In this document: positions 2,198 through 27,200 of the stretch, in pieces
Layout: each line of letters begins with the position of its first letter
How positions within the stretch are numbered: the first letter of the stretch is position 1
From: a virus
Length of the DNA: 27,250 nucleotides
Virus record (IMG/VR): IMGVR_UViG_3300025283_000004
Span: 1-27,250 of that record
Direction: 5' to 3' (one strand)
Notes under the pieces: generated by a model
Database searches by the model: none
What the model was told of the DNA's origin: nothing
Seen by the model: the letters and a program-made list of their open reading frames with translations, nothing else
Translations under genes and position numbers: made by a program

Positions 2198-2590
2198 ATG
2201 CCTAAGTTCCGAGAATTTAAGGATTTAAGTGTAACGTTTGATAAACACATTCAAACGGGTGATCTGATTGTAACTAAGAATGAGAGAGCGATTAAAACGG
2301 CGATTCAAAATTTAGTTGTAACAAGAAGAGGAGAGCGTTTTTTCAACTCCGACATCGGAACTGGATTGACAAATCTCCTCTTTGAAGCGATGGATTATGG
2401 TATTGCTGGTTCTATTCAATCTGAAGTATCTCAAATCATTCAAAAATACGAACCAAGAGTTGATTTAGTTTCCGTTAATGCGTTTCCAAACTTTGATGAT
2501 AATCGTTATGAGATAGAAGTTGAGTTTAGAATCAAAGGCATCGATATTGTTCCCACTACAGTGGAAATTTTTCTAGAGAGAACCAGATAA
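2198..2590 (+). CDS. 25: Baseplate wedge subunit gp25
   Basis: At 130 residues it is close to the 132 of T4 gp25. The family pattern is visible: a helix with ERAIKTAIQNLVVTRRGERF (T4 has SIKNSLLGIITTRKGSRPF), then DIGTGLTNLLFE, a helix, and YEPRVDLVSV, which holds the EPR signature, followed by a strand pair. gp25 is related to GpW/TssE proteins and sits in the wedge next to the gp6 dimer, where it is thought to help start sheath assembly. The start has no clear Shine-Dalgarno site (AATAGCTCTCTC precedes it). The stop is directly followed by the gp6 ATG, so the two are surely co-translated. Confidence 0.95.
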   Translation: MPKFREFKDLSVTFDKHIQTGDLIVTKNERAIKTAIQNLVVTRRGERFFNSDIGTGLTNLLFEAMDYGIAGSIQSEVSQIIQKYEPRVDLVSVNAFPNFDDNRYEIEVEFRIKGIDIVPTTVEIFLERTR

Positions 2591-4390
2591 ATGCCATACA
2601 CACAGGTTAATAACTTAGATTATCTACAAATAAAAAACGCACTGAAGGATTATCTGAAGGCGCAAACGGATATTACTGACTATGATTACGAAGGGTCAGT
2701 TATTAGTCATTTACTTGATGTATTAGCATACAATACTTACTATACTGCGTTCAATACCAACATGGTAGTGAACGAGTTGTTCTTGGATTCTGCTACACTA
2801 AGAGATAATGTTGTTTCATTAGCAAAGCAACTAGGATATCGTCCTCGTTCAGTAACCTCTCCGTCAACAAGTATTAACTTCCAAGCAAGCTTTACTGGAA
2901 CAGCACCAGATACGATTACATTAAAAGCAGGTGCTGCATTTACAACAATCTTTGATGATACACTATATCAGTATAGTGTAGTTGATGATATCAAAGCAAA
3001 TGTAGTCGGTGGAGTTGCAAATTTTACAAATATAGTTATTAAAGAGGGAACCTACCTCAAAGCAAACTTTACCGTAAACTCAACGTTGAAGTCTCAGAAG
3101 TTTATTCTGTCAAATCCATTTATCGACACTTCTACAATCCGTGTAAAAGTGTTTCCTAACAGTTCTAGTACTTCGTTTGCGATTTATAGACCAGCAGATA
3201 ATGTTTTATCAATAACACCAAGTTCTAGAGTGTTTTTCATTGAAGAAGTAGAAGATGAAAACTACGAAATCACGTTCGGTGATGGCATTTTCGGAAGAAA
3301 ACTTCAAAATACTGAATATATTGAGATTTCATACCTCACAACTAACGGACCCGCTTCGAATGGAGCAAACTCATTTGTATTCAATGGTATTCTAGCAGAT
3401 ACATTTGGTAATACAACATACACCGTTACCGTAACTGTACCCACTGCACCTGAAGGATCTTCGGGTGGAGAAGACATTGAATCAATCGATAAGATCAAAA
3501 AGAACGCTCCTAAGATGTATGGAGCACAAGACCGCGCAGTAACAGCGGATGACTACGAAGCAATCATTCGTAAAATCTATCCAGCAACCTCTGACATTAT
3601 TATTTTTGGCGGTGAAGAAGACAATCCTCCGCAATATGGTAAAGTTAAGATTGTAATAAAACCAAGAAACACAGCATTCTTGACTGCATTTAGCAAGAGG
3701 TCGATTGTTGATGAACTCAAAAAGTATTGTGTTGCTTCGATTACTCCAGAAATCGTTGATCCATCAGTTGTTTATGTCGAGATAATCAGTGATATCTTCT
3801 ATGATACCAACAAAACAACACTAACTGCAGACAAAATCAAAGCTTTGGTTGTTGAAACTGTGGAAAAATATATTTTATCGTCAGATATTGAAAAGTTTAA
3901 TGGTAAGTTTAGATATAGTAAGGTAGTTGGTGCGATTGATAATGCAGAAAATGCCATTACAAGCAACTTGACATATATTGTCTTGAGAAAAGACTTTTAT
4001 CCCGCATTAAACGCAAGTTATTACTATGAACTATGTTTCCAAAACACATTTGATGAAGAATGTGATAGTTCTACCGTTTATAGCACTGGTTTTGTAGTTC
4101 AAGAATACCCCAATGATATAGTATATTTGGAAGATCGTGCTGGCAAAATGGTACTATATAGACTAGATTCTCAAACTGGAGATAAAATTGTTTTAAATCG
4201 TGAAATAGGAACGGTGGATTATGTGAAAGGTGAAGTGAAGTTATACGATCTTTCGATTATACAGGGAACATACAACGATAACAAAATCGAACTGAGAGTG
4301 ATTCCTCTAAAAAATGATATTAATGCTTCAAGAGAAGTTTACTTGGATGTTGATATTCCAAGAAGCACATTCACCGTAGTCCAAGAGTAA
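2591..4390 (+). CDS. 6: Baseplate wedge subunit gp6 (baseplate J-like)
   Basis: At 599 residues it is a little shorter than T4 gp6 (660). The N-terminal part has the gp6 helices (DYLKAQTDITDYDYEGSVIS and LAYNTYYTAFNTNMVVNELF). The middle carries the baseplate-J motif FGDGIFGRK at about residues 229-237, and then the segment AVTADDYEAIIRKIYP, usual for the J domain. gp6 dimers link neighbouring wedges into the ring around the hub. The ATG directly follows the gp25 stop, and the next start comes 4 bases after the gp6 stop. The C-terminal 110 residues are beta-rich and look like the usual cyanophage form. Nothing seems broken. Confidence 0.93.
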   Translation: MPYTQVNNLDYLQIKNALKDYLKAQTDITDYDYEGSVISHLLDVLAYNTYYTAFNTNMVVNELFLDSATLRDNVVSLAKQLGYRPRSVTSPSTSINFQASFTGTAPDTITLKAGAAFTTIFDDTLYQYSVVDDIKANVVGGVANFTNIVIKEGTYLKANFTVNSTLKSQKFILSNPFIDTSTIRVKVFPNSSSTSFAIYRPADNVLSITPSSRVFFIEEVEDENYEITFGDGIFGRKLQNTEYIEISYLTTNGPASNGANSFVFNGILADTFGNTTYTVTVTVPTAPEGSSGGEDIESIDKIKKNAPKMYGAQDRAVTADDYEAIIRKIYPATSDIIIFGGEEDNPPQYGKVKIVIKPRNTAFLTAFSKRSIVDELKKYCVASITPEIVDPSVVYVEIISDIFYDTNKTTLTADKIKALVVETVEKYILSSDIEKFNGKFRYSKVVGAIDNAENAITSNLTYIVLRKDFYPALNASYYYELCFQNTFDEECDSSTVYSTGFVVQEYPNDIVYLEDRAGKMVLYRLDSQTGDKIVLNREIGTVDYVKGEVKLYDLSIIQGTYNDNKIELRVIPLKNDINASREVYLDVDIPRSTFTVVQE

Positions 4391-24201: not shown

Positions 24202-27200
24202 AAATGTAGCTAAGACCGACACTCTGGAACTTCAGAGGCAGAAAATAAATCTAATAGCTTCTGATTTGTTTACAGTGCAAACATCGGTTGGCGCGGGTGC
24301 ATTTAGTATGAGTGATGGCACGGTGCAAGCACCAGCGTTGTTTTTTACAAATGCAAACGATGTAGGTATTTACCGAGGATCTTCAAAAGGATTATTTATT
24401 GGATCTGAAGGAAAGGGTGTTGCTTCATTTGAATCTTCATTTCTTACAGCACTCCAAGACATTAGAACATTATCTTCTCCGATTACACCTGGAGCAACTT
24501 CTTTAACTATTTCAAATGCTGGGGCTAACTACAATGTAGGAGCTTATCCTAAAGTAAAGTTATCTGGAGGTAGTGGACAAGGAGCTATTGCATCTTTATC
24601 TACATCTGTTACTGGCACTATTACTAATGCTGGTAGTAGTTATGCAGGTGGGGTGTATGCCAACGTTCCACTTACAGGTGGCAGTGGATCTAACATGGTT
24701 GCTGCTATAACTGTATCTGCATTTGCTGGAACTATAACAAATGCTGGAACTGGAGGATCATCCGCAAATACATTTACCAATGTTGCATTAACTGGTGGAT
24801 CTGGAACAGGGGTAAGAGCTACCATAACAACAAGTGCATTAGGTTTAAATATAGGCGTATCGAATGTAACTATTACCAATACAGGCACTGGATATAGTCC
24901 AGGAAATGTCCTTTCTGCTGCATCTGGAAGTATAGGTGGAGTAACAGGGTTTCAATATACCCTCAGTCATGTAGGAGAAGTTACTAATATACAAGTTACC
25001 GAGGGCGGTACTGGATATGCAGTGGGAAACGTTTTATCTGCAAGTAATACTAATCTAGGTGGATCTGGTAGTGGATTTCAGTTTGCAGTTTCTGCTATAG
25101 GAACATTAACAAATATCAATGTTACAAACGGGGGAGATAACTACAAAACTGGTGATGTGTTAAGTATTCCTCAATCTGAGTTAGTACAAATAGTTACATA
25201 TTATGTAAAGATTTTACCAACTCAGTTAGTAGAGTTTGCAACACCAGTCTCCGCCTCCAGTGGATTTGCGGTTGGAAATACAATCACTTATAATGGCGGC
25301 ACGGCAACTATTGTAAAAAGATTTGTATCTGGATCAAATATAACAGCTGTAACAGTTTCGGATTACAACCTTACATATTTGGCGGGTCAAACAGCAACTG
25401 CATCTGGTGGAGGATCAGGAACAGTTTCAGCAATAACTAGTGCTCTAAACTATTTCTTTAGTTCTAATGGTTCCTCTGGTTCTTATATCAATATACCAGA
25501 TTTAACATTACAAAAAAATGTTAGATATGTGTTTGATCAATCTGATCCCACAAATATTGGTCATCCACTACGTTTCAGTACAACTCCAGATGGATTCCAC
25601 ACAGTCGTTGTTCCAAATCCAACTGCATATGGAGTAAAGTATGAAGGTAGTGAAGTAGATTACACATATACATCAAACTCTATTGCTATCACACCAAATA
25701 GTAGCACGCCAACTACCTTGCATTATTATTGCGATGCTGGAACAGTGGGGGGAAATGCTCATATAGATGAGGGTGGATATAACGGAAGGGAAGCAACTGT
25801 TACTATAAGTGGCCAAGCATCCTTAACTGGTAGTGGCATTTCTTTAACTGTAAATAATGTAACAGAATCATCCAATATTTTATTACAAAAAAATGGTAAT
25901 GCAAATTTAGGCGCAACTAATGTTTTGTCTTTATATTCTGCTACGGACTTGGAAGTTGATGGAGATTCTATTTTCTTTGGAGATCTCAATGTAAATAATA
26001 ATTTTACTATTGCTGCAGCAACTGGCAATACAGTAATTGATGGTACACTTACAGTTAACTCTGATTTAGCATTTTTAAGTGATGCTGCTTTTGGTGGAAC
26101 ATTATATGTAGATTCCACCAATAATAGAGTTTCAGTAAATATAAATCCTAATGTAACTCCATTAACTTATGCATTTCAAGTTTCTGGTTCAGTTTTTACT
26201 AATAGCAACTGTATACTATCTGCAGGATCTGGCACTATAACAAAAATAGGAAATGCTAATGTTTTGGCATCCTCAGAAAGACTGCAAGTTGATGGTGGTA
26301 TTTACACAAATTCATATTATAGAGCTCCCGTAGACACTGGTGTTGCTTCTCCCGCATATACGTTTACTGGATTGACCAGGGTAGGTTTAACAGCAAATAG
26401 CACAAATAATACATTATCATTAGTATCTACTTCAGGAGAATCATTGACGATTTCTCCTACTTTAATAACTTCATATCGTGATATGAATTTTGATAAGTTA
26501 ACTGTAACTAGTTCTTCTTTTGTTGGTGGTGAAGGATATACTAATGGTTCTTATTCTGGTATTTTATTGTCTGGTGGATTGGGAACTGGTCTTGTCGCAA
26601 ATATTGTTGTATCTGGTGGTTCTGTAACATCAGTAACTGTTACAAATTCTGGGGAGGGATATATTTCTGGAGATAAACTCACATTACCATCAAATTCTTC
26701 TCTTGTAACAACTCAAGTCTTACCAATAGGTTCTACTACTTGGTTGCCACAACAATCAGTTTCGTTAAATCAGTTATTATTTTATAATGATATATTGTAC
26801 ACTGTTTCTGCAGCAGGAACCACAGGTCAACTAGCTCCCACACACACATCGTATTCTGCTCCAAACGGGACAGCAACTCTTACATTCAATAGATACATTA
26901 AATTTTCCTATAATATAAACACTACTAGTGTTTCTAGTACAATATCTATTGACAAAGATACTGGAACTATTACTGCTCAATCTATAAACACCCTCGGAAG
27001 CGGCATTTTAATAGACAATAATCTTTCTATTGATGGTACTAGTATTTCATCTACTCAAGATGAAGATATTTTTGTTGCTCCAGGATCTTCATCTAAATTG
27101 CTATCTGTTTCTGGAACTGGTGGTGTCAAACTTCCTGTAGGTAACTCTACTAATAGACCATCAGCAGCAACAGCAGGTATTATTCGTTATAATACCCAAA

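Follow-up and report, generated by a model that had tools for sequence, protein, structure and literature searches.

A probable cupredoxin-fold module in a marine phage tail fibre with a metal site possibly remodelled to His2-Cys-Glu

The fibre gene at the 3′ end of a 27,250-base virus record (the whole stretch is called the window here) raises the question of whether a phage tail fibre contains a domain of the blue-copper kind and, if it does, what has become of the metal site. A sequence-only reading of this DNA had proposed a cupredoxin-like domain that has lost its copper ligands. In that proposal a first His and the Cys remain, the second His and the Met are missing, and the ligand loop is one residue shorter than in related marine proteins ending in YYYCxNHSGMGG. 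Below we place the fibre domain in a family of phage virion proteins, follow the ligands across that family, and consider what the rebuilt loop of the window copy may do.

Genomic setting of the fibre gene

The window carries a T4-like baseplate block, which the fibre gene follows. Its relevant features are:

2198-4390: baseplate wedge proteins, phrog_261 and phrog_219 (PHROG)
Within the baseplate block: an open reading frame of 3202 amino acids
14053-15789: gp8-like protein in the baseplate block
Within the baseplate block: a protein of 2714 amino acids
24188-27250, plus strand: fibre protein open reading frame of 1021 amino acids, following the baseplate block and open at the 3′ end of the window

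The protein encoded at 2591-4390 is 58% identical over its full length to the baseplate wedge subunit of Synechococcus phage S-WAM2, and the window phage is therefore a relative of the marine cyanomyoviruses. The open frames of the fibre protein in its relatives span 1282-1561 amino acids, compared with the 1021 present before the window frame runs off the 3′ end. The fibre matches the virion structural protein phrog_6005 (PHROG, E = 6.2e-98), with residues 360-543 also matching the baseplate wedge family phrog_708 (PHROG), and residues 1-244 resemble virion structural proteins of marine cyanophages (35-38%, among the 20 matches listed). Between 24500 and 25180 of the window, the fibre protein has repeated Gly-rich stretches of the TITNAG...LTGGSG kind; a search for DNA tandem repeats in the fibre gene found none.

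A domain family in marine-phage virion proteins

The domain under study and the two ligand positions that can be placed directly against the family are:

25439-25810, plus strand: cupredoxin-type domain, fibre residues about 418-541 (family profiles, hhalign)
25562-25564, plus strand: H459 codon; the first His of the site, in the family's invariant His column
25730-25732, plus strand: C515 codon; the Cys of the site, in the family's invariant Cys column

The three motifs named in the sequence-only reading are all found where it had put them in the translated reading frame, at fibre residues 445-454 (25520-25549), 458-469 (25559-25594) and 511-522 (25718-25753), and its numbering of H459 and C515 is correct. 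Its claim that these two residues are retained also holds, since both align with the invariant His and Cys of the family.

Sequence comparison shows that the window domain belongs to a large domain family in marine-phage virion proteins. Family profiles built without it match it with E-values from 4e-15 to 8e-15 (4e-15 for the seed profile and 7.7e-15 for the A5 profile), and hhalign aligns the window-domain profile with the canonical family over 95 columns (E = 6e-26). On the A5 match and the hhalign score we reject a similarity by motif only. The ligand set His, Cys-x2-His-x2(3)-Met is not present in the window copy, which is thus a divergent relative and not a full-ligand member.

A Pfam scan of the window gave no match to the plastocyanin/azurin models PF00127 or PF13473, and phmmer with the window domain against PDB sequences returned only an antibody (E = 0.53). 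For the family as a whole, no Pfam or NCBIfam model covers or names it at the curated cut-off; two of 76 members match PF00127 or PF13473 weakly (best E = 0.017), and the best sister domain scores 20.2 bits against PF00127, where the cut-off is 21.2. PHROGs labels the carriers as tail fibre or baseplate wedge proteins. A search of open-licence full texts, an incomplete listing of the literature, found no paper describing a cupredoxin-type virion domain in phages. The family is apparently both widespread and unnamed.

Its carriers are marine-phage tail fibres, gp7 and gp9-like baseplate proteins, and S8-protease proteins. Of 50,697 phage records, 35 match the window domain, and every one of them is named as a Synechococcus or Prochlorococcus phage or a cyanophage. 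A canonical fibre domain matches 144 of the 50,697, and the gp9-like baseplate connector, through its C-terminal domain, matches 336, with few exceptions cyanophages; a domain of the S8-protease protein of phage P-HM2 matches 59 phage records. Both P-HM2 (L012:5542-11025) and S-BM3 (L020:338-5117) have a large protein with cupredoxin-type domains, annotated as an S8 peptidase in S-BM3 and lying in the same T4-like cluster in P-HM2. For one sister domain of P-HM2 there is a match to plastocyanin 1b3i (E = 0.0017).

Predicted fold of the family and of the window copy

The model of the canonical family (mb45e536b7919), built from 71 sequences, has a mean pLDDT of 93.7 and a pTM of 0.88. All 50 PDB matches listed in a structural comparison with this model are copper proteins of the cupredoxin kind. 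The best of the matches listed is 2dv6 (Z = 9.5, rmsd 2.6 over 96 residues), and rusticyanin 2cal aligns with Z = 9.0 and rmsd 3.5 over 105 residues. Foldseek likewise puts 2dv6 first (E = 2.6e-3, probability 1.00); its listed matches are of the cupredoxin kind, none with an E-value below 0.001. A Greek-key cupredoxin fold is well supported for the family by this prediction, and the contrary proposition, that the fold is not a Greek-key cupredoxin, fails for the family since its confident model lists cupredoxins only. The closest solved structures to the canonical model among the matches listed are rusticyanin and the cupredoxin domain of Hyphomicrobium nitrite reductase; the likeness is structural, and a relationship between sequence families is not part of it. 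Profile searches of PDB sequences prove little here, one ranking pseudoazurin first with E = 0.046 and another ranking an unrelated enzyme first, with pseudoazurin at E = 0.27.

The model of the window domain itself, from 12 sequences, is of low confidence (pLDDT 63.4, pTM 0.64) and drops below a pLDDT of 50 at residues 111-113, inside the inserted loop described below. In the PDB it comes closest to dystroglycan and Ig domains (Z up to 6.2); rusticyanin (4.3), small laccase (4.3), mavicyanin (4.1) and azurin (3.8) rank lower, and the matches listed by Foldseek are mostly Ig-like folds. Against predicted viral structures, the same model best matches cyanophage fibres, baseplate proteins and an S8 peptidase protein. 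Structure prediction therefore bears out the cupredoxin proposal for the family, whereas the window's own model, at a pLDDT of 63, ranks Ig-like folds above cupredoxins. Taken at face value, this ranking would make the window domain an Ig-like or other Greek-key sandwich that shares only motifs with cupredoxins. We consider that highly improbable given the low confidence of the model, the profile comparison with the canonical family and the cupredoxin-only matches of the family model. We read the Ig-like ranking as a product of the poor model and take the probable fold of the window copy from homology.

Ligand conservation across the family

Two scans of viral_contigs used patterns that leave out the ligand loop, the first covering the N-terminal half including the GHP turn and the second a mid-domain stretch without any ligand; each gave at least 120 matches, of which 80 loci were listed. 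Among the matches listed for the first scan, 82 of 82 domains have the Cys, His and Met. The loop is C-x2-H-x2-M in 72 of the 82 and, by eye, C-x2-H-x3-M in nine and C-x4-H-x2-M in one. Within the 72, no loop is commoner than LYYYCTNHSGMGG, which was counted 11 times, and the YYYCxNHSGMGG relatives named in the sequence-only reading are real. Of the 80 loci listed for the second scan, 39 were already in the first sample; all 83 of its listed domains have C-x2-H-x2-M (in one, of the CxxHxHM type), and none of the 82 readable domains lacks the first His, one more being cut by the contig end. A scan for gp9-type domains finds His-Pro in 80 of 80 and C-x2-H-x2-M in 79 of 79 readable domains, again among the matches listed.

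Related phage proteins with the full type-1 ligand set thus exist, as had been supposed. When the collected homologues are scored on the C-x-x-H-x-x-M loop, the Cys, His and Met are kept throughout the three listed samples (82/82, 83/83 and 79/79), which rules out that the family never had the His and the Met. Across 76 family domains, the invariant columns are F, H, P, C, H, M and G. The full type-1 ligand set, with the spacing seen in amicyanin, appears nearly universal in these sequences.

All collected loci together give 243 distinct profile matches, of which 219 have all four ligands. The remainder consists of nine partial or split matches, eight members of the window lineage (the window included, some being near-duplicates) and seven real variants. 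One of the seven has Gln for Met (L191), one is without the Met (L014), and five are without the Cys and the loop His (L021, L022, and the second gp7 domain of L013, L014 and L015). In these five ligand-dead domains the Cys and loop His are absent together, and in four of them the first His is absent too. The gp7-like baseplate proteins of L013, L014 and L015 have two domain copies each, the first keeping His, Cys and His (and Met in two of the three) and the second without the Cys and His ligands. The domain with Gln in place of the axial Met is at L191:4001-4291, on a contig titled SAR86. Stellacyanin also uses Gln as its axial ligand.

From this conservation we infer metal binding in the canonical members of the family. 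It could be argued that the family-wide His/Cys/His/Met cluster is a structural relic, or a zinc or iron site, and not a copper site. Phage particles are put together in the cytoplasm, a compartment with little free copper and with competition from zinc, and the sampled domains are related, so that their conservation is not independent. We nevertheless regard this reading as unlikely, because the identity and spacing of the ligands equal those of amicyanin (His53, Cys92, His95 and Met98, as given in PMC12723479), and because the Cys, His and Met persist where the loop length changes (the nine C-x2-H-x3-M domains and the one C-x4-H-x2-M domain among the 82 listed). The canonical relatives share the same four ligands with amicyanin at C-x2-H-x2-M spacing and, like the plastocyanin-azurin cupredoxins of PF00127, are predicted to form a Greek-key sandwich. 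The PF00127 cupredoxins are secreted electron carriers, whereas the phage family is built into virion proteins, and the window copy departs from them further with its C-x9-H-x2-E loop.

Register and remodelling of the ligand loop

The part of the site that follows C515 in the window is:

25733-25759, plus strand: DAGTVGGNA, the nine-residue spacer from Cys to His, against two residues in the canonical loop (7-residue insertion)
25760-25762, plus strand: codon of H525, the putative shifted second His (alignment, score test, hhalign, lineage invariance)
25769-25771, plus strand: E528 codon, where the family has its axial Met (alignment, hhalign, lineage invariance)

Alignment with near relatives sets C515-x9-H525-ID-E528 of the window against C-EV-H-PN-M of the full-ligand relatives, the window loop being seven residues longer. 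The near relatives L037 and L036 read YYC-EV-H-PNM-AGLTGQRAEVTID and LYC-EV-H-PNM-NGFDGYEGEIT, respectively, and L033 has a long loop like that of the window, YFC-GEGTSEGAA-H-KDE-GGFDDREGTIT. From the loop His onward, the aligned near relatives are gap-free. Registered on this His, the alignment has a mean BLOSUM62 score of 28.8 over 35 sequence pairs, compared with -4.0 or less for the other ungapped offsets (0-9), and a score as high as the post-His one came up in 2 of 20000 column shuffles. Profile-profile alignment (hhalign) reproduces the H525/E528 register. A contrary register comes from the 71-row MAFFT alignment A6 of mixed rows and from hmmalign to the A6 profile, both of which place the loop differently; the H525/E528 register therefore rests on the near relatives.

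The sequence-only reading had set the loop ungapped against YYYCxNHSGMGG, hence its statement that the loop is one residue shorter. The near-relative alignment, the score test and hhalign instead make it seven residues longer. The second His, which had been counted as missing, is most likely kept in H525 and displaced by the insertion; it may have been overlooked because the range considered, to 25760, ends on the first base of the H525 codon. The window loop has no Met, as had been said, but the position is held by E528, an invariant Glu. The description "lost its copper ligands" thus does not stand: H459 and C515 are unchanged, the second His is most likely shifted, and a Glu occupies the Met place. 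The broader idea of a blue-copper-type fold is supported by the predicted cupredoxin fold of the family, and the window copy departs from the type-1 ligand set that related phage proteins have. On these alignments, its metal-binding loop looks rebuilt, not simply lost.

In IMG/VR the window lineage comprises the window and 10 contigs that carry 6 distinct sequences; searching with a loop-independent pattern brought up no further members there. The 9-residue spacer between Cys and His is present in all seven distinct sequences, and H459, C515, H525, D527 and E528 are invariant in all seven, at pairwise identities of 59-91%. Invariant columns make up 65 of 137 in the lineage, so that any four picked would all be invariant by chance in about 5% of cases, and the invariance of the four candidate ligands, taken alone, is weak evidence. 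H471 (25598-25600), the His of a DGxH turn, is invariant in the 12 A4 sequences and is not among the four expected ligands.

In a tree of 32 rows (12 of A4 and 20 hand-picked canonical rows), the lineage forms one clade (99/97), joined to five full-ligand orthologues at 100/99. One of these five, L036 with its CEVHPNM loop, is collinear with window fibre residues 2-900 (31% identity, E = 8e-106), and the loop change therefore occurred in place, in an orthologous protein. Each of the 10 lineage contigs, all possibly fragments, has one family domain, and a search of them for a gp9-type copy gave no match.

A candidate His2-Cys-Glu site

The explanation that we prefer takes fibre residues about 418-541 as a cupredoxin-fold module of a fibre and baseplate family of marine tailed phages, most modules of which keep the residues of a type-1-like site, namely the His in the GHP turn and the Cys-x2-His-x2-Met on the last loop. 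In the window lineage, alignment and tree show that the orthologous domain kept the first His and the Cys, gained seven residues before the second His, and exchanged the Met for Glu. The long loop would fold back, allowing H459, C515, H525 and E528 to hold one metal ion in a His2-Cys-Glu site that is not of the classical blue type. The metal would tie the last strands of the module together and shape the exposed loop at its end, and the site would serve fibre stability or contact and not electron transfer, which is not indicated for this domain. We give this explanation, a cupredoxin-fold fibre module with its metal site remodelled to a possible His2-Cys-Glu set, an even chance as a whole. An unchanging Cys, two His and an acidic residue where Met would be suggest continued metal binding by the window copy, and we put the probability that it does so through this candidate site just short of even.

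Nearly as likely as metal binding by the window copy is metal-free reuse, the idea of the sequence-only reading, to which we assign a somewhat less than even probability. The fold would then be a structural or host-contact module whose loop binds nothing, with H525 and E528 kept for folding or contact. The Met is absent in all seven lineage sequences, the 7-residue insertion lies beside the Cys, the loop is Gly-rich, and gp7 as well as phages PSS2 and P-RSM4 offer examples of the fold with its ligands lost, all of which would be consistent with such a module. It explains less readily why the Cys, both His and an acidic residue at the Met position are all invariant in the lineage, and the ligand-dead copies look different, having lost the Cys and loop His together.

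A more general claim goes beyond the remodelled site that we prefer for the window copy: that marine phages generally carry metal-loaded cupredoxin sites on their fibres and baseplates, with the window lineage as a derived, natural His2-Cys-Glu form (red-copper-like or with another metal) on a long Cys-x9-His loop. We consider this doubtful.

Comparison with known metal sites and wider meaning

To our knowledge, a Cys-His spacing of nine exceeds that of any single-copper cupredoxin loop, which counts against the candidate site in the window copy. Cupredoxin ligand loops tolerate exchange and differing lengths with the ligand set kept, according to PMC7480511, and the family itself has C-x4-H and H-x3-M variants in which the ligands are kept. 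For the ligand set, the nearest parallel is nitrosocyanin, a red copper protein described in PMC9241007 as having a His2CysGlu site. The candidate set of the window copy likewise consists of two His, a Cys and a Glu. The two differ in that the Glu of nitrosocyanin sits elsewhere in its sequence, and there is no sequence match between them.

Metal-binding residues on phage tails have been linked to ocean metals before, in the iron-binding HxH of the fibre tips of T4 gp37 and alterophage R22Y (PMC11705849). Those tips differ in fold, ligands and metal, with paired His in a trimeric tip, whereas the family described here has a Cys-His-Met loop in a beta sandwich. Abundant phages of the ocean carry a full set of type-1 copper ligands in proteins of their baseplates and fibres. 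Should the sites be loaded with metal, marine virions would be a pool of copper (or zinc), the metal may take part in adsorption or particle stability, and the family would be a copper counterpart to what has been proposed for iron on phage tails. The window lineage is a natural experiment in the rebuilding of a cupredoxin ligand loop, and metal on the tails of such viruses becomes a testable question.

The family also appears in a genome scan, at 20 loci that are nearly all titled as marine MAGs or single cells and may be phage contigs. One canonical-type domain (L185, 62% identity) is on a contig titled Epulopiscium sp. SCG-B11WGA-EpuloA1, a single-cell assembly in which it may derive from a phage or a contaminant.
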